The notes below the pieces were generated by a model that saw nothing but the letters and a program-made list of their open reading frames with translations, did not search any database and was not told the origin of the DNA. DNA of 64,000 bases. Source: Gammaproteobacteria bacterium. GTDB taxonomy: Bacteria; Pseudomonadota; Gammaproteobacteria; Xanthomonadales; SZUA-36. How positions within the stretch are numbered: position 1 is the stretch's first letter; every line of letters starts with the position of its first letter. The translations under genes were made by a program, and so were the position numbers. Below are positions 52,042-63,773 of the stretch, one piece after another. The DNA lies in the NCBI GenBank assembly GCA_021772935.1, contig JAJFLA010000046.1:124001-188000 (forward strand), in the 5' to 3' direction.

Positions 52042-53223
52042 TCATGGATCTTCTTCATCGATTGCGGTGGATGGCGATACACTGATCGTTGTGGTATCGA
52101 CACCCTGAGCGTTCAGCAAGTCTTCAATAGAGAGTGTTCCTTCCGACTCATCGTTAATCAAGTATTCCAGTGCGTTCTGGGAAGTGCCCGTAGTGCTATC
52201 TGTTTCGGGCCTATTTTGTGAACTCAGTGAGGGATTGGCAGGTGGCGCGACATAGTCTGATGCAGGGCCCTGCAAAGACGGTAATTCTGGTAATGGATTT
52301 GTTTCACTGCCACTTTCCTTTGTAGTCGAGTGACCATCAGTTGTTTGCCCGGTCTGATTATCACCGTTAATCAAGAACTCCAGTGCATTCTGGGAAGTGC
52401 CCGTAGTGCTATCTGTTTCGAGCTCATTTTGTGGGGCTGGTGAGGGACTGCCAGATGGACCGTCGTTGTTTTCACCACTGGCAAGCTGACTTCCAGTTTT
52501 TTGTAAAAACTCCATTGCATTTTGTGATATGCCAGCCGTGCTTGTGGCATTTGCATCATTTGATGGATTCGCAGAATAACTGCCCGTGTCACCGCTTTGT
52601 TCAGAACTATCTTGCTGACCAGGCTGCTGTCCCTCACCACTTTGACCGTCACTGCCTGATCCCTCGCTGTTATCGGAACCCTCACCTTGCGCACCCGAGG
52701 ACGTCGTTGAGGTCCCGGCTCGCGAAGAACTTGCATATGTTTCAGCCTCTCTCTGATTATAACCATCAACCAGTTCGTCCCAGGCTTCTGCCTCTTGCTT
52801 TTGAAGAGAGGGGTTGGTATTGGCCGCTTCACTGGGAACATAAGGGTAGTCTGTGTCTTCATCACCCGGTTGCCATTGATCCCCTTGAACTATAATTTCA
52901 CGCAATTGGTTTCTTAGATGTTTTTGTGAGTCCTCAGGCAGTTTGTCAAGTTTCTGCATACCCGCCTGGGATTTATAAGCCGTTTCAGGGAAGACGTCTC
53001 TCTGTTGCCGAGCGTCCTTCAACTCCATGAACTGTCGGTAATTGTCTTCGTTGATTTCCACCTCTTGGCCCGCTGGTACATCTTCACTTTCCAGTGTCGC
53101 TTCTTCTGTATCAGTCTTAACCGGTGAGGCCACAGTTGCTATATCGTCCTGAGCCATAGTGGATGTCATATACAGGGATAGCGAGAGTGTTAGCAGGCAG
53201 ATGAATTTCAGGTGATTATTCAT
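52042..53223 (-). CDS. Secreted low-complexity protein with three SQNALEFL repeats
   Basis: A 393-residue protein with a clear signal peptide (ICLLTLSLSLYMTSTMA) and an acidic, Ser/Gly/Gln-rich, probably disordered body. Three copies of a short unit stand out: STAGISQNAMEFLQ, DSTTGTSQNALEFLIN and DSTTGTSQNALEYLIN; the last two are nearly identical over more than 50 bases of DNA, so the duplication is recent. The N-terminal part (NEDNYRQFMELKDARQQRD) is helical. It starts 18 bases after the kinase gene and closes the operon. By context the repeats may be docking peptides for a vWA, FGE or CHAT partner; no family is recognised. Confidence 0.65.
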   Translation of the reverse strand: MNNHLKFICLLTLSLSLYMTSTMAQDDIATVASPVKTDTEEATLESEDVPAGQEVEINEDNYRQFMELKDARQQRDVFPETAYKSQAGMQKLDKLPEDSQKHLRNQLREIIVQGDQWQPGDEDTDYPYVPSEAANTNPSLQKQEAEAWDELVDGYNQREAETYASSSRAGTSTTSSGAQGEGSDNSEGSGSDGQSGEGQQPGQQDSSEQSGDTGSYSANPSNDANATSTAGISQNAMEFLQKTGSQLASGENNDGPSGSPSPAPQNELETDSTTGTSQNALEFLINGDNQTGQTTDGHSTTKESGSETNPLPELPSLQGPASDYVAPPANPSLSSQNRPETDSTTGTSQNALEYLINDESEGTLSIEDLLNAQGVDTTTISVSPSTAIDEEDP

Positions 53224-53241: not shown

Positions 53242-55683
53242 TCATTCTTCTATGATCCGCACAACGCGGAAACCAGTGAAATCATTACGATCACCATTTT
53301 TAAGATTGAACCGCGCCGGCAAGCGGATTTCTTTTGTGCCGGTAATCCATGAACCACCACGGGTCATGTGTGAACTGCAGATTCCCTTATTCCAGGCACT
53401 TCCATCTACCGGTGCATCAAGGTATGACAGGTTCATACAATCTGAAGTCCACTCCGCCACGTTGCCAATCGTGTCATACAAGCCGAATGCATTTGCCCTG
53501 AACGAGCCCACGGTGGCAGTTCCCAGAGCCAGTTTATCTTCGCACGGCGAGTGCTGCCAACGAAAGCCGGTTTCAGCTCCGGCGACATTACCAAATTGAC
53601 ACACCATCGCAGGATCACCACCCAACCAGTCACTTTCCTGACCCGCCCTGGCAAAATACTCCCACTCACTTTCACTTGGCAAGCGGTAACGCTGGCCTGT
53701 TTTTTCGCTAATCCAGTGGACGTATTCCTCGGCATCATTCCAGGAAACCATGATGGCTGGCCTGTCCTCTCTTCCCCAGCCATTATCACCAGGTTGGGAG
53801 GTACAGCCTTTGTCGTTAAAACACAAATCCCATTCAGCCATGGTGATTTCATAGGTGCTGACTGCGAACGGCTCGTCGATGGTCACCATCCTGCGGGGTT
53901 TTTCCATGCTTAAGGCAGACGTTGATGTATCGTCAGATCCTTGCCAATAAGCAGCCGGGGGAAGCACAATCATGCTGGGACAATCAACACAATCTTTGAA
54001 TATTTTACCTGGTCGTAAAGTCAGGTCGTCAATATGTTGTAGCGCGGCGGCAACATTTGCACCCTTGGAGAAAGCATCGATGTATGCCTGAAATGCATCT
54101 TTAGTATTCAGCTTAAGCGCCGTCTGGAAGGCATTATCATCATCCAGCTGATCCTTCAGTAGACGACGAATCCGATGGGCTTCTTCAATATGAGCACCGG
54201 CAGGCCAGTCAGTGATGTATTGATCAAATGCAGTGATCGTACGCTTGTTGATGGCAGTCTCCCAGGCCAGATCTTCCAGTCTTTCACGCTCCAGTCTTTC
54301 ACGTTCCTTTTTTGCCTCGGCTTGCTTGATTGTATCAATACGTTGCATGGCTTCAGTCTGATGAATACCGTCGGGAAATATTCCCAGGTAATCCTCATAA
54401 GCTGGCACTGTGTTTTCTGCCGACAGCTCTTGCCAGGTCCTCTCGTCGATGATATCCAGTTGCTGTTCAGCCTGACTGCGGTAGATGGATTCCGGGAAAT
54501 CAGCTATGAAACGCCGGTAGCCAAGTACAGTGTCGGCTTTTAACGCAGCTTGCCAACGCCCAACTTCTTCCGAAGACGGATCTTGAGCACGTACCGCAGC
54601 TTGGGTATCACTCGTCAGATCATCAGGGTTTGCAGTAGAAGGTGTGGGAGCTTGTTGCTCGGATTCATCGGTGAGTAGAAAAATACCGATTGCGGTCATG
54701 CTCAGCAAAAAAACCGCCAGCAAAATCACTGGCAACCATTCTTTCTTCTCCTGTGCGTAGTTTTCTGTACTTCCACCAACCACCACCGAGCGGTGCCAAT
54801 CGAGACTTTTGAAGGATTTTTTCCATGCGCTGACGTTGTTCGGGCGTTCGTGTACCTGTACTTTCAAACCCAGTTCAATAGCGTCGGTTAAACCGCCGTA
54901 TTCTGCGACAGGCGCCAGCTCAGAAAATGTCGTCAGTGGATCTGAATCGCCTCCAGCAAGCAGCTCTTGCCGCTTTATCGCCGATGTTGGGATGCGGCCG
55001 GTAACACAACGATAGAGTGTTGCGGCCAGACCGTAAATATCGGTCCAGGGTCCGATGATTCCATCAGCATTTGCTTGCTCAGGTGCAGCGTAACCTTCGC
55101 TACCGAGTCGATGTTGATCCGTTGCCACATCGCCGTCTGCTGCCGCGATGCCAAAATCCAGCAATATGGGATTGCCACTATCGGTCATGTAGATGTTGGC
55201 TGGCTTGATATCCTGATGAACAACACCTTGTTTGTGAATGTATTCGAGTGCATCCATCAAAGGCAGCATTAATGCCCTGGCAGCCTCACGGTCAAAGGAG
55301 CCCGAGGTTTCAAGCAGATGGTGTAGTGCTTGCCCCTGGTAATAGGGCATCAGAAAATAGGCTGTACCATTGGCTTCGAAATATCGCAAAACCTTGACGA
55401 TATTTGGATGATCCAGCGCCGCAACGATGCGTGCTTCGGTCAAAAATAGTTTAAGTCCAGAATTGAAAACCTCTTCAGACTGGTCATTTTTTGCTTGGAT
55501 GTTACCGTCATCCTGTCGCATTACATGCTTGGAAGGCAGGTATTCTTTAAGCGCAAATCGGGTACCAATGGCCGGGTCAGTGACCAGGTAGGTGATGCCA
55601 AACGCGCCAACACCGAGAATCGCGTTAATTTGCAGGTCCCCAATGTGGGATCCCGGTTGCAGCGCAGCTGACTGGGTTGTCAT
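53242..55683 (-). CDS. Transmembrane Ser/Thr protein kinase with periplasmic FGE/SUMF1-like domain
   Basis: 813 residues. A cytoplasmic Hanks-type kinase has the glycine loop GVGAFGITYLV (24-34), Lys46, catalytic HQDIKPAN (Asp158; Gln replaces the usual Arg) and DFG (176-178), so it looks active. A membrane helix at about 317-337 follows. The periplasmic part has four similar helical units (about 377-552, each with W/A-x-A-L, Y-x-F/Y-I and P-x-x) and then a formylglycine-generating-enzyme-like domain (about 565-810: YEITMAEWDLCF, RLPSESEWEYFAR, GNVAEWTSD, RGGSW). Kinase-FGE fusions are known (Chlamydia Pkn1). The start overlaps the upstream gene by four bases. Confidence 0.88.
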   Translation of the reverse strand: MTTQSAALQPGSHIGDLQINAILGVGAFGITYLVTDPAIGTRFALKEYLPSKHVMRQDDGNIQAKNDQSEEVFNSGLKLFLTEARIVAALDHPNIVKVLRYFEANGTAYFLMPYYQGQALHHLLETSGSFDREAARALMLPLMDALEYIHKQGVVHQDIKPANIYMTDSGNPILLDFGIAAADGDVATDQHRLGSEGYAAPEQANADGIIGPWTDIYGLAATLYRCVTGRIPTSAIKRQELLAGGDSDPLTTFSELAPVAEYGGLTDAIELGLKVQVHERPNNVSAWKKSFKSLDWHRSVVVGGSTENYAQEKKEWLPVILLAVFLLSMTAIGIFLLTDESEQQAPTPSTANPDDLTSDTQAAVRAQDPSSEEVGRWQAALKADTVLGYRRFIADFPESIYRSQAEQQLDIIDERTWQELSAENTVPAYEDYLGIFPDGIHQTEAMQRIDTIKQAEAKKERERLERERLEDLAWETAINKRTITAFDQYITDWPAGAHIEEAHRIRRLLKDQLDDDNAFQTALKLNTKDAFQAYIDAFSKGANVAAALQHIDDLTLRPGKIFKDCVDCPSMIVLPPAAYWQGSDDTSTSALSMEKPRRMVTIDEPFAVSTYEITMAEWDLCFNDKGCTSQPGDNGWGREDRPAIMVSWNDAEEYVHWISEKTGQRYRLPSESEWEYFARAGQESDWLGGDPAMVCQFGNVAGAETGFRWQHSPCEDKLALGTATVGSFRANAFGLYDTIGNVAEWTSDCMNLSYLDAPVDGSAWNKGICSSHMTRGGSWITGTKEIRLPARFNLKNGDRNDFTGFRVVRIIEE

Positions 55684-57248
55684 GAGGTTTCTGTCTCTTT
55701 TCTGATAATACTGATATGGAACTGGACAGTACCCATAAAAATTTCATCCTCGGGTTCAAAAAACATAATTTCTCCCGCCAGGCAGGGCATGCCTCTGATG
55801 AAAGTACCATTACTGGAACCAAGGTCGGACAGGCTCATTGACTCCACATCACATTCAAGTCGGGCGTGAGCACGGCTAATGGCCGGGTGTTCAATATTGA
55901 TGTCTGCTTCGCCCCTGCCAATAACGATACTAATCGGCTCAGTGCTAACAACACACATTCGTTTGAAGCGGGTATCAGCATCAAGTAAGCCTTCGATCAC
56001 AACAGCACAACCAGAGCCATGGGGCAGGGTGTTGGTGTCTAAAACGTCCCTTACGTCCAGTGGCACTGATCTGGGCTTAAAGCGGTTACTATCAGAACCG
56101 GTTTGCAATTGCGCCGTGTCGGGTTCTGCTGCAACGGGATGATCCTCTGATGGCAGGTCCAGCTTGGGCACTTTTTTTGTATCGTTGTTAACGATGCGGT
56201 AAAAAGAGATACCTTTCCAGATCAGTACCGTCAGGATAATGACTCCAAGTGGTGCTAACCACAAAGGAATGCGGCTCCATTGTGAGGGACGGTTAGTGGT
56301 TTTGCTATTCGCTGGCTTGTCTGAATCAAGGGCAGTTGAAGCAGGAGTGACTGCAGATTGTTTCGGAACAGCTTGCGCTTGTGTGTCAACCGTAACCGGG
56401 TTGCTGTCATTGGTTTCCTGTTCTGCCTTTTTCAAGCTGGTGTCTCTAATTATCTTATTATCGTTAGCTTGCGGACCCGCGCTTATTTCCTTCTTCGTTA
56501 CGGAACCCCCACAAACTGCCCGTGGCAGTTTGATCAAGCTTGCATCAAGTGCGCGACCAAATTCATTGTTGAAAAGGGTCGCAGGGTTTTTGTCCAGATC
56601 CAGGCTTTGTGTGCCTTGGGCCAGGCTAATTCCTGCCAGGTAGCCACAATCATCAATGATGGCTCCACTAACATTGGGCAAAGGTGTTTCAAGGGAAATC
56701 GAAACCCGTGCATTCAACTCATCCCAAAAAATACTGACAGGTACCCAAAGAGGCTCAGCGCCTTTGGCAATATATTGGGCTGGTGGAAACGCTGTCAGAT
56801 GTAAGTCGCTTTCAGCGCTGCTGTCATCTGCATCACCAGAGGTTTGTTCTGAGAGTGTGATGCTCGGCCTTTTCAGTCCTTCAACTGACAAAACCGCAAG
56901 CCCACCAGGGCCAGATCGAGTGATAATTTTTGCCGGCCGACCATGACTAAGAATATCGGTACCACCGTCCAGAACAACGATTTCGGTATCGACCGGGTTG
57001 AGAGGTGTTGATATAAAATCAGCGGCAACCAACACCAGGCCGTTATCCGAGACCACGATGCCTGTGGTCGGTTTTACATGTGTTGTTGAAACCAACTTAA
57101 GCACCAGCACCACCGAAGGCGACATCGGTCTTGTCTCCACAGCGTTGGCTACAGGCATCAATAACACGGTTATGAACAGCAGTTGCAGTAACCGATTGAA
57201 CGATTGAACGAAGCTCTGATTGAGCTTGAGCATGGAGCCAACCTGCAT
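55680..57248 (-). CDS. Membrane protein with degenerate trypsin-like domain and cytoplasmic FHA domain
   Basis: 522 residues. A signal or anchor segment (LLQLLFITVLLMPVANA) leads into a periplasmic HtrA/trypsin-like domain at about 45-245 that lacks catalytic residues: the usual AH is AD (Asp77) in LVLVAADFI, and the usual DLAVL is GLAVL (Gly116), while the serine loop reads PNVSGAIID (Ser194). After a Ser/Thr/Ala linker comes a membrane helix (about 327-345) and a C-terminal FHA domain with IVIGRGEADI, SRAHARL and SSNGTF, the phosphothreonine-binding residues. It is coupled to the channel gene (TGATG) and to the kinase gene (ATGA), so it is a likely kinase partner. Confidence 0.83.
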   Translation of the reverse strand: MQVGSMLKLNQSFVQSFNRLLQLLFITVLLMPVANAVETRPMSPSVVLVLKLVSTTHVKPTTGIVVSDNGLVLVAADFISTPLNPVDTEIVVLDGGTDILSHGRPAKIITRSGPGGLAVLSVEGLKRPSITLSEQTSGDADDSSAESDLHLTAFPPAQYIAKGAEPLWVPVSIFWDELNARVSISLETPLPNVSGAIIDDCGYLAGISLAQGTQSLDLDKNPATLFNNEFGRALDASLIKLPRAVCGGSVTKKEISAGPQANDNKIIRDTSLKKAEQETNDSNPVTVDTQAQAVPKQSAVTPASTALDSDKPANSKTTNRPSQWSRIPLWLAPLGVIILTVLIWKGISFYRIVNNDTKKVPKLDLPSEDHPVAAEPDTAQLQTGSDSNRFKPRSVPLDVRDVLDTNTLPHGSGCAVVIEGLLDADTRFKRMCVVSTEPISIVIGRGEADINIEHPAISRAHARLECDVESMSLSDLGSSNGTFIRGMPCLAGEIMFFEPEDEIFMGTVQFHISIIRKETETS

Positions 57249-57994
57249 CAGGGGGCGTAAAGTCGATTGATCAGGTTGTCAAGGCAATACTGTCCTGATC
57301 TATTCAGCGTATTTTCTTCTCTTCCCTGGATCAGGTTTTGCAGAAAAACCAGGATGGCGGCCATAACCAACGCAACCAGCGTGGTGCTGAAGGCGACCCC
57401 GAGCCTTTCTGTCACCTGGTACAACATTTCCGGGCTCTCGACATTTGCACGGTCGCCAGCATAATTCAGTGCAAGCATGATGCCAATGACAGTGCCGATG
57501 AAGCCGAGCGAGGGAATTAACCAGGTAATGTAACGGATCATGTTGTAGCGCAAATCAAGTTCGTGCAAAAACAACTCAAGACTGGAGTTCAACAAGGCAT
57601 TGGTCTGGTCCACAGATTGACCAAGATTGAAGTTGAGTACACACCTTTCTATTAATCGTGGCAGAAAGCAGACATTACGGTATTTACTACTACGCACCTT
57701 CTGATAAATTGGCGTTATATCATCACCGGGCCGAAGTACGGTTTCTTCATCAAGTGGTAGATAGTTCCGCTCAAACTGACTTTCTTCCAGACGACCAGCA
57801 CGCCAGCGAAGTGACAACTCACCCAGGCCGAAAAAGAAGGCAATCCAAAGTATGTTCTGGACGGTAAACGGCCAGGAGGCACGCTTGACATCCAACATGA
57901 TTGCTGCCGCGTCAGGTGGCAAGATTCTCGCCATCAAAGCGATGATCAGCAGGGCCGAAGCCAGGCTGAGTAGTAGCGTTATTTGACGTGTCAT
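57248..57994 (-). CDS. MotA/TolQ/ExbB-family proton-channel protein
   Basis: A 248-residue inner-membrane protein with four predicted helices (about 5-24, 45-63, 155-176, 197-220) and a large cytoplasmic loop between helices 2 and 3, a MotA-like topology. The channel signature is seen in IPSLGFIGTVIGIMLALN and LGVAFSTTLVALVMAAIL. Family members form pentameric stators with two copies of a single-helix partner that carries a conserved Asp. The two vWA proteins encoded upstream have such a helix and are the likely partners. Next to the FHA/pseudoprotease gene with a one-base overlap. Confidence 0.88.
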   Translation of the reverse strand: MTRQITLLLSLASALLIIALMARILPPDAAAIMLDVKRASWPFTVQNILWIAFFFGLGELSLRWRAGRLEESQFERNYLPLDEETVLRPGDDITPIYQKVRSSKYRNVCFLPRLIERCVLNFNLGQSVDQTNALLNSSLELFLHELDLRYNMIRYITWLIPSLGFIGTVIGIMLALNYAGDRANVESPEMLYQVTERLGVAFSTTLVALVMAAILVFLQNLIQGREENTLNRSGQYCLDNLINRLYAP

Positions 57995-58017: not shown

Positions 58018-58446
58018 TTAATTGGGTTGATCTTCTTCAATTTTGCCGGTTGCCGGGTTGCGTTTTGGCTTTTGAAGTAAGGCTCCGTGACCTACCTGTT
58101 GTGCCGACGATTTAGCATGATTATTACTATCTCTTAAAGGAAAATGTCTTGCCTCCAACCGGGTATTAGCAAGATTCCCAAAAACACCGGTGAGATGCTC
58201 CAACGTCACCTCGACCTCGCCAAAACGGATACGGTCGCCAACACACAAGGTGACTCTCCTGACACGAATCCAGCTGTCATTCCGGTTTAGAAATGTACCG
58301 TTTCTTGAATCCACATCCAGCACAAAGACAAGCCCATCATCAGCCAGTTGGATGTGGGCGTGGAGTCGGGAGACACTTGGGTGCTCAACCACGAGCGTAC
58401 AGGATGGTTCCCGTCCGACTGTTTTGCTCTTCAGTTCGTTATTCAC
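58018..58446 (-). CDS. Small cytoplasmic FHA-domain protein (5' end uncertain)
   Basis: From GTG 58446 the product is 142 residues: an FHA domain with TVGREPSCTLVV, HPSVSRLHAHIQ, DVDSRNGTFLN and GDRIRFGEVEV, then a polar tail. The phosphothreonine-binding Arg, Ser and Asn positions are present. The first strand of the fold seems to lie upstream of this start: the same frame continues backwards through NEIVDDGWLGP to an in-frame TGA (58480-58482), and beyond it to an ATG at 58503. So the gene is either started at GTG, coupled to a tiny overlapping frame, or interrupted. No signal peptide. Confidence 0.75.
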   Translation of the reverse strand: MNNELKSKTVGREPSCTLVVEHPSVSRLHAHIQLADDGLVFVLDVDSRNGTFLNRNDSWIRVRRVTLCVGDRIRFGEVEVTLEHLTGVFGNLANTRLEARHFPLRDSNNHAKSSAQQVGHGALLQKPKRNPATGKIEEDQPN

Positions 58447-58585: not shown

Positions 58586-59524
58586 TCATTGCGCCAACGC
58601 CAAAAAACTGCCGGAATTGGCCCGCGCCAGACTCTCCATAAATTCAACTGTTCCCTTGTACTTGAAATAATCTCCAATGGTCACGGCGTGTACTTCTTTG
58701 CCGTCAGGGTTTGACAAGACGATGGCCTGAACCAGTGCTCTTGGTGGCAAACCATCGTTATAGGTCGGGTTGGGAAGGCCATCACTGATCAAAATTATGG
58801 CTTCTGCAGGACTAGCGAAGGCCAGTGTAAAAGCATCCTGCAAGGATGACGAGCCTTCGAATTTGCCAGATAGTTGGCGTACAAAGTGCAACGCCTGTGC
58901 TCTGCTCGTATTATTCATTGCAGTCAGCTCGCCATTTTCGGGCCAACGATGATATCGAGGGCCGGAGTCCAATTGTTGAAAACCAAGGATTCCAAACTCA
59001 TAACCCACCTGCAAAGATTCAAGTGCCCTTGCAACGGTCTTCGCCACCAGTGCCTGGTGCCCAGCAAGGTATTTATTCATATCAATCAATAACAGAATAC
59101 GGGTTTTATCGGTCTTTAATCCCAAGAACCGAAAAGTTACCAGGTTACTACCTTGTTCCTCTTCGGTTTTTACCGGGCTTGGTGGGGGAGGGGGCGGGTG
59201 TTCATTTCGTGCCTGGAGTTGCGCCCGTATGGTCTCCAGTTCACTTGAAACGATGTCCTGCTCTGCCTGCAACTCCAACTGACGGGTCTGTGCCGTGCTC
59301 AACGATGTCTGGATGCTATTGATTCCCTGTTCAGTATCGTTCAAGTGCGCATCTGTCTGGCCGGCCAGTGATTCGATGTACTCCAGATGTCCTTCGAGGC
59401 GAACCTCTTTTTGATAATCTGGCATCAGGATGATGGTGATGATAATAAAAGCACCCATCGCAGAGGCAAACAGATCAATCGCCGATAACGAAAACACACC
59501 CAGGTTTCTGAGCCGTGTTCTCAT
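58586..59524 (-). CDS. TolR/MotB-like anchor fused to a vWA domain with degenerate MIDAS
   Basis: 312 residues. The N-terminus has a single helix preceded by FSLSAIDLFASAMGAFIII with Asp17, like the Asp-bearing helix of ExbD/TolR/MotB stator subunits. Then follow a coiled coil (about 45-105), a Pro-rich linker and a vWA-type domain. The metal-site motif that should read DxSxS is DMNKY (148-152), so metal-dependent binding is probably lost, although ILISDGLPNP is retained. It overlaps the upstream paralogue by four bases (ATGA). Together with that paralogue it probably forms a heteromeric stator for the channel protein. Confidence 0.82.
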   Translation of the reverse strand: MRTRLRNLGVFSLSAIDLFASAMGAFIIITIILMPDYQKEVRLEGHLEYIESLAGQTDAHLNDTEQGINSIQTSLSTAQTRQLELQAEQDIVSSELETIRAQLQARNEHPPPPPPSPVKTEEEQGSNLVTFRFLGLKTDKTRILLLIDMNKYLAGHQALVAKTVARALESLQVGYEFGILGFQQLDSGPRYHRWPENGELTAMNNTSRAQALHFVRQLSGKFEGSSSLQDAFTLAFASPAEAIILISDGLPNPTYNDGLPPRALVQAIVLSNPDGKEVHAVTIGDYFKYKGTVEFMESLARANSGSFLALAQ

Positions 59525-60450
59525 CTTGATACACCCACAAAGTCACCGCCATTGAGACGCGCAAGTGTTTGCATAAAAAGTACCAGGTTGCGGTTATGTG
59601 TGTACTCACCGATGGCCACTGTGTGGATTTCTGTCTGTCTGAACCGGTTAAGTTGAGTAATATTCTCGATGATGAAGCCGGGAGGGCTGTTCGGTTCACC
59701 ATCACTCATCAGGATGACCGCATTTGATGGGTACTCCAGTGCAGCCTGTAACGCAAAGTGAGTCGGTGTTGAACCGACAAACTTGCGTACCAGCGAGTGT
59801 GTGAAAGCTTCCGCAAGCTCAATATTCTCTTTATTGGCAGGTAACAACTTTTTGCCGGTTGGAAAGCTCCACAAAACCGGTTGTGGATTACCATGGTAGC
59901 CGACGATGGCAAACTGGTTGGTTTCATCCAGTGGTTTCAGAATTTCAAGCACAGACCTGATCATTAATTCTTCGTACCGGAGCATGCTGCCAGACATATC
60001 AACCACAATCACAAAGGACTTTACTTGTGAGGCAAGGCCCAGGATTGAAAATTCGACGCCATCGGTCAGGGCCTGAGGTTCTGGTTCAGGTGTGACGATT
60101 TCAGTCGGTTCAGTCACCTCAGTCGGTAGAGCTGCGAGTTGCCTGTTGATATCCATTAACGCTTTTCTAAGACGGGATATCTGCTGCTCCTGTCCCTGGT
60201 TGGATTTGGTCTGCAGGTCGAGTTCACTTTGAAGTTTTTCCTGTAGGGCCTTCAAGTCTTCAAGCTCTCCCGAAGCCAGACGGCGTTTCTCCATGATATC
60301 CTGAGTCTTGGAAAACGAATCGTCCGGGCCGGCGTGGCGATAGTAAGGGAACAACAACATAACCAGTAGAATGAACGCACCCAGTGCTGAGGCGAACAAA
60401 TCAATGGCCGAAGTCGAAAAAACAGCAGTGTCTCTTTCAGGGATTCTCAC
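59521..60450 (-). CDS. TolR/MotB-like anchor fused to an intact vWA domain
   Basis: 309 residues, paralogous to the next gene. The N-terminal helix has FSTSAIDLFASALGAFILL with Asp17. A coiled coil (about 45-108), a Pro/Glu/Thr-rich linker and a periplasmic vWA domain follow, with a complete MIDAS: DMSGS (151-155), the Thr-containing GSTPTHFALQ, and ILMSDGEPN. vWA domains with intact MIDAS bind protein ligands through a divalent metal. First gene of the minus-strand operon, divergent from the CHAT gene across a 212-base gap. Confidence 0.85.
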   Translation of the reverse strand: MRIPERDTAVFSTSAIDLFASALGAFILLVMLLFPYYRHAGPDDSFSKTQDIMEKRRLASGELEDLKALQEKLQSELDLQTKSNQGQEQQISRLRKALMDINRQLAALPTEVTEPTEIVTPEPEPQALTDGVEFSILGLASQVKSFVIVVDMSGSMLRYEELMIRSVLEILKPLDETNQFAIVGYHGNPQPVLWSFPTGKKLLPANKENIELAEAFTHSLVRKFVGSTPTHFALQAALEYPSNAVILMSDGEPNSPPGFIIENITQLNRFRQTEIHTVAIGEYTHNRNLVLFMQTLARLNGGDFVGVSR

Positions 60451-60662: not shown

Positions 60663-63600
60663 TTGAACTACAGGCAATGCTCTTTGGGCTTTGTTTTTCT
60701 CGCCTTGTTTCTGGCGGGAACCTCTATCCCCAGCATTTTGTTGGCTCAGACTGGTGAGCAAATAATCACACAGGAGTATTTTGTCCAACAGGAGGCTGAT
60801 GAAGCACTATTAATCAAAATCAGTGCCTTTGAAGCTGAGTTTGAGTCAAAACTCTCCGGCCAAAGTGGGGAGTTGTTATTACTCTCTGAAATCCCCGGGA
60901 GTCGATTAGCACCTGTTTATCAATATGTAAATATCCCAAAAAATGCCCGCCAACTGAATATCGAAGTAACTTCAGGTCTTCACACCAGGCGTAGCCAATT
61001 CGGATTGGAATTGACTCGGTTGAAAGTCTGGGATGACAGAAGTGAATCAGTGGCTCGGGCTTACCAGTTACTTTCGTTCGGAATGCAAACCATTCATGGT
61101 GATAGCAAAGCAAACTGGACCGTAAAAATTGACAACCTATTAAACGCTGGAAAGTTATTTCAACAGTTTGGCATGACGGAAATGCGTTTGTGGGCCAATT
61201 ATCTGGCGGCGCACTTGATCCAGTTTCATTTGCATGACCACAGCATCGTTTACAGCATGACACGCGAAATTCTGGCTGACCTCAAAGGTACGCGATTTCA
61301 GACCATCGAATTGGCCGCTTTGCAGCTGCAAAGTACCGCACTGATCGGGCTCAAGAGATCAGGTTCCTTAAACATATCTGAATCCAATCCAGACCCGGTG
61401 CAAACAGTGCTAGCGCGTTCGGTAGCACTCGCACAGTCCTTGGATCTCAAGTTCGAACAGGCACATGCACTCAGCATCAGCGGTGCTGAATACGCATCCG
61501 CGACGGCGTACGCACAAGCCCTTGAGCAGTTTCAACTGGCAGTGGCGATTGCCGATTCAGTCGGTGATGCAGAGCTGGCAACCGGTATCCGGGAGAATAT
61601 CCAGCAGATACACGCAACACAGGGAAATACTGTGGCTTCAGGCGAAGTTCTCCGGGAAATAGAAACACAACTGGCTGAAGATGGTGCAGAAGAGGAATTG
61701 GCACTGAATTTGTTGGCACAGGGGCGTTTGTTGGTTCGCAGCCATCGCTATGACCAGGCCATTGATGTGCTTTACCAGGCCTTGAATTACGAGAATGACA
61801 GTGCGATTCGCAAGCAAATTAATTTTGAGCTTGCAAAAACATTTTTTCAAACGGGCCGTATCGATGAATCGATGGCTTATTTAAAGCTGGCCGAGGTCAA
61901 CCAAGCGTCGGCTCAACTGAAAAGAGTCAATTCAGTGATCGACTTAGCTGATGGTTTGCGGATATTGGCCAATATTCACCGCGCCAAAGCCGAATATAAG
62001 CAAATGCGTGAGGCCAGAATCACTCAGGGCCAATCCCAGCCACTAACTGCCCAATACCTCTATGACCAGGGCTTGGATGAACTCACTCCGGGGGTAGTGG
62101 ACCGACAACGGGCACGATCCCGGTTCAGGCGGAGTTACAGTTTGGCGGTCACAACCGGGCAGGTTGATTTGCAAGACCTTTCGTTGTTGCAGATCTGTGC
62201 GCTGGTCAGTCCTGGAGATAAGAGCCTTATTTTGTGTTCAAAGGTCAGTGTAAAGACTTCCTATGAACGACTGCTTGCCTGTGGAGTTCCAAGATTCTCC
62301 ACCCAGGCGATGCTCTTGTGGACACAGATACTGGTCAATAATGGGCAGCAGTCAGAGGCCTTTGTTGTCATGGATCACCTGCTGGACGAGGTTCATCTCT
62401 ACCGTCATTCACTACCGGGGGTGTTGGGTAATTGGTACCAGGAACATCATCAACACCTGTTCGATACTTATCTGGCGATGTCGCTAAACGATCCTGCAGC
62501 GCAAGCTAAGGGTGACGGATTCGCATCACTACTGGCTTTAAGCAAAATCCGGACTATCCAAAAATATACCAGTTCTGTTTCGGCTTCAAATACGAGTTTT
62601 AACGCGCCTGATCTGTTGCGAGCCCAGTTGGCACAACGTATGAATTTGGCGACCGGGCAAAGCCTGTTGACTATGAATAATGATATCAATCAGAGCCTAG
62701 CCAAAATTCGGTCGGTGTTTAAGGAAAAAGTTGCCTATCTTTCCAGAGCAGGATTACAAAAGTACCTGCGCAGCCTTGCCAGTGACGAAGAAATACTGAC
62801 ATTCCATATCAGTGCGACAAGCGCGCATGTATGGCTTGGGCACAAAGGCAAGGTTCAGCATCGAAGCATTGCAAATCCAGCCTATGTATATTCCGCCCTA
62901 CAACAATCCCGGCAAGGGTTGGCAGACATCGGTAAATCTGCGTTTGAAAGGAAAATGGATGAACTGGGTCGCCGCTTGCTCGCCCCGGTTGCTGATTTGT
63001 TAACGAAAACGATCTATTGGATTCCAGCTGGCCCATTACTGGGGTTTCCTTTGGATGCGACCCGGTTGAATGGACGCTATCTGGTTGAAGGCCACAGCAT
63101 AGTGAATCTGACGTCTTTTCCAGTGAATACAAATCCAAAGGCCAGTTTACAAGTTGGAGCACTGCAACATGTGTTCCTGGCCGGTCACCCTCAGGACTAC
63201 ACCGGAGACTATGCAACCCGCCTCAACACATCAACTGAAATTCGTGCGATTGCTGACATTTTTGTTGGACCGAGACTACGCATTGTCCAGGGTGCAGCGC
63301 TGTTACTGGATGAGTTCGAGAGCGAGGATTTCAAACAGGCTGGTCTGGTGCACCTGTCAATGCCCGGTATCATCGACCTAAAACATCCCGAACAGTCTAG
63401 TTTCGAGCTTTCCGGAAGTGAAAGTGGAATAAAGCGACCAGCATTCAGACCGGAACACATCCAGTCACAACAGTTAGATACCAAGTTGGTTTTTCTGAGT
63501 GCAAGCACCATGCAAGATTCACCACTTTCAAGCTTTAACAATCATCTGGGTCTTGTTTCAGATTTTCTGGATGTGGGTGTACATTCTGTGATCACGTCGT

Positions 63601-63773
63601 TATGGGCAAAGGGTGTAGAGGTTGGCGAAACTTTTATGGCAGATTTCTACCGTAATCTTGAAGATTCAGGCAATACTGCAGCTGCGCTACGTGCTGCCAA
63701 GCTTGAGTTTTTGCACAAACATACTGATAAGGATCTTTATGATTGGGCCAGTTTTCAGCTTTATATAGAGTAA
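60663..63773 (+). CDS. Secreted TPR protein with a catalytically degenerate CHAT domain
   Basis: 1036 residues from TTG 60663 (no ATG nearby, weak ribosome site), with a signal peptide (LGFVFLALFLAGTSIPSILLAQ). The middle (about 120-640) consists of helical TPR-like repeats. The C-terminal third is a CHAT (caspase-like) domain, recognisable by HVFLAGHP, GVHSVITSLWAKGVEVGETFM and FYRNLEDSGNTAAALRAAKL. The catalytic pair is missing: the motif usually reading HFATHG is HLSMPG (Pro901 for the His) and the usual LSACET is LSASTM (Ser948 for the Cys). It is probably a periplasmic scaffold or sensor of the adjacent divergent operon. Confidence 0.85.
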   Translation: MNYRQCSLGFVFLALFLAGTSIPSILLAQTGEQIITQEYFVQQEADEALLIKISAFEAEFESKLSGQSGELLLLSEIPGSRLAPVYQYVNIPKNARQLNIEVTSGLHTRRSQFGLELTRLKVWDDRSESVARAYQLLSFGMQTIHGDSKANWTVKIDNLLNAGKLFQQFGMTEMRLWANYLAAHLIQFHLHDHSIVYSMTREILADLKGTRFQTIELAALQLQSTALIGLKRSGSLNISESNPDPVQTVLARSVALAQSLDLKFEQAHALSISGAEYASATAYAQALEQFQLAVAIADSVGDAELATGIRENIQQIHATQGNTVASGEVLREIETQLAEDGAEEELALNLLAQGRLLVRSHRYDQAIDVLYQALNYENDSAIRKQINFELAKTFFQTGRIDESMAYLKLAEVNQASAQLKRVNSVIDLADGLRILANIHRAKAEYKQMREARITQGQSQPLTAQYLYDQGLDELTPGVVDRQRARSRFRRSYSLAVTTGQVDLQDLSLLQICALVSPGDKSLILCSKVSVKTSYERLLACGVPRFSTQAMLLWTQILVNNGQQSEAFVVMDHLLDEVHLYRHSLPGVLGNWYQEHHQHLFDTYLAMSLNDPAAQAKGDGFASLLALSKIRTIQKYTSSVSASNTSFNAPDLLRAQLAQRMNLATGQSLLTMNNDINQSLAKIRSVFKEKVAYLSRAGLQKYLRSLASDEEILTFHISATSAHVWLGHKGKVQHRSIANPAYVYSALQQSRQGLADIGKSAFERKMDELGRRLLAPVADLLTKTIYWIPAGPLLGFPLDATRLNGRYLVEGHSIVNLTSFPVNTNPKASLQVGALQHVFLAGHPQDYTGDYATRLNTSTEIRAIADIFVGPRLRIVQGAALLLDEFESEDFKQAGLVHLSMPGIIDLKHPEQSSFELSGSESGIKRPAFRPEHIQSQQLDTKLVFLSASTMQDSPLSSFNNHLGLVSDFLDVGVHSVITSLWAKGVEVGETFMADFYRNLEDSGNTAAALRAAKLEFLHKHTDKDLYDWASFQLYIE

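Follow-up and report, generated by a model that had tools for sequence, protein, structure and literature searches.

The 5:2 motors TolQR, ExbBD, MotAB, PomAB and ZorAB carry peptidoglycan-binding-type domains on their axle subunits. To our knowledge, both axle subunits are identical in all 5:2 motors solved so far. Because they are identical, the role of each subunit in the power stroke cannot be asked there.

Two described systems come closer to the locus reported here. In AglRQS, the gliding motor of Myxococcus, one TolQ-like protein is combined with two different TolR-like proteins (PMC3169522), and whether these act as heterodimer or homodimer is stated as unknown in PMC9389320. A paper in Mol Biol Evol 2025 (PMC12204202) describes TPH-vWA/TolQ-like putative force transducers, in which TM-anchored vWA proteins are tightly linked to tolQ homologues in loci without tolR/exbD. 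Their pore helix carries a proton-binding Asp and the vWA proteins occur predominantly in heterologous pairs; rotation in the pentamer is proposed, and AF3 models put the Asp pair in a Thr ring. The main idea, namely that vWA proteins, mostly in heterologous pairs, serve a TolQ-like motor as its pore subunits, is already covered by that paper. A text search of its main text gave no match to MIDAS, metal, kinase or phosph, and the sole FHA match was the name FhaC. Among the titles and abstract starts listed in searches of open-access papers, neither a conserved pair of intact and changed MIDAS nor a kinase/FHA link of such motors was found. Apparently new are the conservation and the age of the intact/changed split, the evidence from the coils, and the setting among kinase and FHA genes.

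The locus lies in a 64,000 nt stretch of DNA, in the following called the window, which is part of contig 41 of a 3.96 Mb draft genome with 56 contigs. As in the TPH-vWA/TolQ family, its cluster has a TolQ-like gene and no tolR/exbD/motB, a TM helix with a conserved Asp followed by a vWA domain, and a heterologous pair of vWA genes; this likeness is judged by the description in PMC12204202. AglRQS is a precedent in that its one TolQ-like protein has two unlike partners (PMC3169522), but AglQ and AglS carry ExbD/TolR domains whereas the partners in the window carry vWA heads. With the 5:2 motors named above the cluster shares the channel fold, the Thr positions and the pore helix with Asp.

The gene cluster and its channel protein

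The cluster is located on the minus strand and starts with vWA-A (59521..60450, 309 aa, GTG start) and vWA-B (58586..59524, 312 aa, ATG start), each consisting of a pore helix with Asp17, a coil and a vWA head. The stop of vWA-A and the start of vWA-B overlap in an ATGA (59521..59524), four bases common to both ORFs, which suggests coupled translation. Downstream follow a small FHA-domain protein, by family a phosphothreonine reader (58018..58446, Pfam FHA 3e-16), and a TolQ/ExbB-type channel of 248 residues (57248..57994, Pfam MotA_ExbB 2.2e-13). The next gene encodes a membrane protein with a C-terminal FHA domain (55680..57248, Pfam; hydrophobic stretches at residues 19-39 and 324-353), whose N-terminal part, with no family assigned, is probably periplasmic. 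A Ser/Thr kinase (53242..55683, Pfam) has one TM stretch (hydrophobic stretch 314-340) and an FGE-sulfatase-like domain, again probably periplasmic. The last cluster gene (52042..53223) encodes a low-complexity protein with a start that appears signal-like by eye; it is conserved in family loci. Divergent from the cluster, on the plus strand, is a TPR-CHAT protein with a hydrophobic N-terminus (60663..63773, Pfam). Where a family locus has enough flank, this gene mostly adjoins the vWA pair (26 of 30 family loci in all); phmmer gave no match to the protein in outside loci.

A Pfam scan of the eight cluster proteins gave no match to ExbD, TolR or MotB. The vWA proteins show neither an ExbD/TolR nor an OmpA-like periplasmic domain, their Pfam matches being vWA and coil only. 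Several known systems were considered and rejected. For the Zorya anti-phage system, ZorA2 scores 14.4 bits with a cut-off of 700, ZorA matches are weak only, and ZorB, ZorC and ZorD were not found among the eight cluster proteins. The T6SS FHA protein TagH (NCBIfam VI_FHA) reaches 41.4 bits with a cut-off of 120.25. As for vWA-MoxR conflict systems, a search of the text of PMC7159879 gave no TolQ, ExbB, ExbD or MotA.

The channel passes Pfam MotA_ExbB with 50.5 bits (cut-off 22.9). A profile built from 35 channel sequences finds TolQ in the PDB (two chains, E 0.007) and aligns the GTVIG segment on GTVWG of TolQ. The structure model (mean pLDDT 91.5) is nearest to TolQ/ExbB; the 50 chains listed are all TolQ, ExbB, MotA, PomA or ZorA entries, and among these matches the best E is 1.8e-3 and none is below 0.001. 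Thr168 and Thr205 are invariant in the 60/60 channel rows reaching these columns.

Over their length vWA-A and vWA-B are 28% identical (BLASTP E 1e-34), and residues 10-27 of the helix show two differences only. In an alignment of 122 helix proteins Asp17 is found in 120 of the 120 rows covering its column, the other two being gapped. The vWA-A head was assigned by Pfam VWA_3 (37.2 bits, cut-off 27), which the vWA-B head does not reach (22.7 bits). In the AlphaFold model, which covers vWA-B only, residues 12-108 form a single helix that leads through a low-confidence linker to a vWA fold; Foldseek places it next to inter-alpha-inhibitor heavy chain 1 (6.8e-9), and also ANTXR2 and integrin I domains. 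An earlier note on this DNA had proposed a near-identical, TolR/ExbD/MotB-like Asp17 helix on both ORFs, vWA heads in place of the peptidoglycan-binding domain and a channel partner for the stator helix. The first holds, with the ORFs at the places given above and Asp17 invariant; the second is borne out by Pfam for vWA-A and by the predicted fold for vWA-B; and the TolQ/ExbB-type gene of the operon, recognised by Pfam, PDB profile match and fold, supplies the third.

A match to the vWA genes is present in 28 of 200 genomes of the order, all of them in the window's family (35 genomes listed). Both vWA genes are adjacent in 26 of the 28. These include G181, with a fragmentary A match at the end of a contig, and G166, with A broken into two pieces; the remaining two, G087 and G171, retain only a portion of B at a contig end. 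The seven family genomes without vWA genes are also without a close channel gene, five of them having only a 30-37% identical one. Scanning the contigs, we found both A and B in 29 of 30 family loci, the exception (L036) being cut by the contig end; the A gene is incomplete in L047, L049 and L056. In 0/30 family loci is one vWA gene clearly present without its mate. Gene order is constant as far as the contigs reach except in two second copies of the cluster (L062, 7036-15118; L063, 549-8619), which are without a channel gene, with one close channel gene elsewhere in the genome. In both copies and in L044, vWA-B and the FHA gene are separated by an extra FHA-like gene of opposite strand (Pfam FHA was applied to the one in L044).

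The two heads and the age of their difference

The MIDAS motif segments read DMSGS, GSTPT and SDG in vWA-A, and DMNKY, GSSSL and SDG in vWA-B. Within the TPT segment, the residue we take to be the MIDAS Thr was chosen by integrin numbering. Among the A rows (n=30) the five positions are occupied by D in 29 (N in L048), S in 30, S in 30, T in 29 and D in 29, row L049 being truncated before the last two. All five residues are intact in 28/30 A rows; S-x-S is present in 30/30, in 29 of these with the leading D. The B rows (n=31) show D in 31, N in 31, Y in 23 or F in 8, S in 29 or A in 1, and the last D in 30, row L064 ending before the last two positions. Thus D-x-N-x-[YF] is found in 31/31 B rows and vWA-B departs from the MIDAS consensus (DxSxS, Thr, Asp), while SDGLPN is kept in every B row reaching it. 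Since the motifs are conserved in 31/31 B and 30/30 A rows, chance is excluded as the source of the split.

The earlier note had spoken of an intact and a broken MIDAS. DMSGS and DMNKY are real, and the pairing it put forward recurs in the homologous family loci (A intact in 28/30 rows, B changed in 31/31). The term broken has to be given up, as both Asp are kept and the changes are Ser,Ser to Asn,Tyr/Phe and Thr to Ser. The B gene is under selection, dN/dS being ~0.04-0.05 for B and ~0.04-0.09 for A where dS was computable; dS was either saturated (above 1.8) or not computable (7/13 comparisons). The same changed residues are found in all B rows; therefore B is not decaying at random.

A conserved but altered site could also mean that the same motor has two active heads, the B site binding something else, either a protein or metal in another way. 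The changed residues are indeed as conserved as the original ones (N 31/31, Y/F 31/31) and the SDGLPN segment persists; against this, two of the five ligand positions are unlike the consensus, one of them bulky. We consider such a second activity possible but somewhat doubtful.

Outside the family, this vWA type was found in 21 loci (L065-L085). A tandem pair with an intact first and a changed second gene is present in L066 (Rhodospirillaceae), L070 (an alphaproteobacterium) and L072 (Binatia); L079 and L081 have two intact vWA genes, L069 has a vWA gene and a helix gene with a different head, and L083 is split. In L069 (7998-10511) a TolQ-like gene is located between the two helix proteins, which are near-identical in helix and coil and differ in their vWA and non-vWA heads; the head difference resembles a natural head swap. 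A single vWA gene with intact motif, presumably forming homodimers, occurs in 14 of the 21 distant loci. With some of these on short contigs and L071 and L073 nearly alike, fourteen is an upper count of independent cases. Single-gene homologous loci, which the earlier note had taken as speaking against its pair, are not clearly found in the family, but they do exist among the distant loci. With 14/21 distant loci single and two doubly intact, the unlike pair is therefore a property of one lineage and not of the whole family.

A further 29 loci (L086-L114) show the same helix on other heads or on other vWA types. Their helix is of SALDLFASA type, and one recurrent head has a pattern like DLHVxDPxGxEFYY. 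These heads are often near TolQ-like, FHA, kinase or FGE-like genes, in several phyla, and the set might represent a large number of uncharacterised motors. With phmmer, a TolQ-like gene was found in the examined stretch of 37 of the 50 outside loci. L066 and L072 show none in their stretches; in both genomes one lies close outside, probably on the contig of the vWA pair.

In a tree of the head domains, B forms a group with the changed second genes from L066, L070 and L072 (99/99), and A is joined by the first genes from L066 and L072 (97/66). After removal of the motif columns, B and the second genes of Alphaproteobacteria and Binatota still group (99/96). Without these columns, a duplication within the window's family is rejected (p-AU 0.029), and so is one private to L066 and L072 (p-AU 0.017); the values are indicative, since the groups to test were picked with the first tree in view. 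The trees comprise 47 rows with and 44 without motif columns, of 122, covering the window and 12/30 family loci, and contain long branches. Both omit L073, L081, L082, L083 and the non-vWA protein of L069, and the motif-free tree also L077, L078 and L085. Most simply, these trees would be explained by a single ancient separation of a lineage with intact MIDAS from one with changed MIDAS, the two having since been retained or transferred jointly.

The same genome holds a second motor locus (L115, 6084-12605 of G000:C41:264001-284000). It encodes a PEGA-FGE protein, a TolQ-like protein (Pfam MotA_ExbB 2.1e-14) and two vWA proteins with a different pore helix of SFLD type (SFLDIMACGFGA and SFLDVISCGFGA). 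A similar layout is found in ten complete pairs from another class of the same phylum (L146-L154, L156). There, DTSGS is present in the second gene in 10/10, although its remaining sites read SNSSPVEG and GDD; the first gene has D-S-S-A-S in the 8/10 in which the pattern search found the motif, and TNL and TDG in 10/10. A milder asymmetry may recur in the sister pairs. The Idiomarina founding sequence of PMC12204202 may belong to this sister family. A profile search over 398 genomes of the phylum gave matches in 32 genomes, including the window's own pair; the others are family f49 (12 stretches examined, all of the sister type) and weak partial matches.

One mixed complex or two

Several observations bear on whether A and B share one channel. 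Two genomes (G588, G589) have two vWA pairs each, but one close channel gene each. At three helix positions the two proteins differ with no overlap: position 13 is T in A and L/M in B, position 23 is L in A and M in B, and position 36 is Y/F in A and D in B. Between Asp17 and the head, the two mates of a pair have spacers that differ by 0-6 residues, although spacer length ranges from 81 to 142 across pairs; the mean difference is 3.1 for mates and 16.8 after shuffling of mates (r 0.98 over 10 pairs; permutation p 1e-4). This test represents the window's family by one pair, plus L062 for the second copies, and omits L069 (second head not vWA) and L081 (near copy of L079). Descent may explain part of the match.

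Beyond the membrane the coil is a helix of ~70 residues, which would be ~10 nm long if straight. Its hydrophobic register over the whole coil is constant in 28/28 loci for A and for B, with a two-residue offset between them; for the third of coil A nearest the membrane, a different register scores best in 16/28 loci. A common heptad frame forced on both proteins gave inconsistent results, with A:A/B:B strongly favoured in one frame and A:B in another. In its place, the best hydrophobic register was taken for A and B individually, together with the offset aligning them. The e/g charge scores at the matching offset are then -1.07 for A:A, -0.86 for B:B and +3.18 for A:B. This preference for A:B in the family has p values of 0.0008, 0.024 and 0.002 in three windows of the coil, which were chosen after the register analysis and are all that were tried; the values overstate independence because the loci are related. 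The test used 28 of the 30 pairs with both genes, L047 and L056 being left out because their A helix is incomplete. The same charge test in nine distant pairs gave four positive, four negative and one zero.

Taken together, the channel count, the gene overlap, the spacers, the helix positions and the coil charges favour a mixed A:B pair in the window's family, as judged from sequence. The earlier note had suggested that the two stator partners of a channel could here be two different proteins; this reading is plausible and has partial support.

Alternatively, each channel would take up two A or two B, giving two motor species in equal amounts, perhaps chosen by the kinase. Single-gene relatives must act as homodimers or with another partner, AglRQ and AglRS are both described as theoretically possible (PMC9389320), and the charge test in the distant pairs is undecided. 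Such an arrangement is opposed by the family coil charges, which suit A:B and are neutral or adverse for A:A and B:B, by the family loci, none of which clearly holds one gene without the other, and by the fixed divergence of the helix positions. We regard separate homodimers as unlikely.

In a further reading both would be ordinary membrane-anchored vWA proteins, the channel having another axle and the Asp being conserved for another reason. The clusters without a channel gene (L062, L063) point in this direction. The invariant Asp17 (120/120 rows), the channel gene in the examined stretch of 37/50 outside loci and the operon's lack of any ExbD/TolR/MotB match argue against it, as do the AF3 models of the published family, which put the helix in the pore (PMC12204202); we hold it for very improbable. 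That vWA-B is a decaying duplicate, as its changed MIDAS and its head below the Pfam cut-off might suggest, is contradicted by the present results, namely its presence, always with the same changes, in each sampled locus of the family, its low dN/dS of ~0.04-0.05 and the old split, and retains next to no probability.

A proposed motor and its meaning

Returning to the mixed pair, we regard it as an even call whether vWA-A and vWA-B are the axle subunits of one proton-driven 5:1:1 motor of TolQ/ExbB type working as follows. An inner-membrane motor of the 5:2 type would be assembled as 5:1:1, with one A and one B. The helices of A and B would pair in the pore, each Asp17 facing the Thr ring of the channel, and proton flow would move the helix pair. 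A parallel A:B coiled coil of ~10 nm could carry the motion into the periplasm. There, the metal site of head A would grip an acidic group on a partner; head B would have given up the grip and serve as structural or regulatory mate, leaving one gripping head per motor. Phosphorylation of threonines at the cytoplasmic face might allow the kinase and the FHA proteins to time the motor. What the sequences document is the gene set with its predicted folds, its conserved Asp and Thr, synteny and coil registers, the old split and the selection on B; stoichiometry, pore placement, proton use, the grip with its ligand, and regulation are inferred. For Mdn1, a MIDAS domain bearing force on its ligands is described (eLife 2022, PMC8837202); in contrast, that motor is unrelated and driven by an AAA ATPase.

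In its strictest form the proposal comprises an obligate heterodimer axle with a metal-dependent gripping head and a conserved grip-less head, an asymmetry which predates the sampled lineages (Gammaproteobacteria, Alphaproteobacteria, Binatota) or was passed on as a unit, and gating by a threonine kinase via FHA. For this combination our confidence falls a little short of even.

Such a pair would represent a natural motor with two distinguishable axle genes, in which each Asp and each head can be changed separately within one complex. It would bear on the question of heterodimer versus two homodimers stated as open for AglRQS (PMC9389320). Moreover, the pair of intact and changed head would give a reason for unlike vWA motor gene pairs, for which section 8 of PMC12204202 gives none. 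The axle of some bacterial motors may thus consist of two different proteins rather than of two copies of one.
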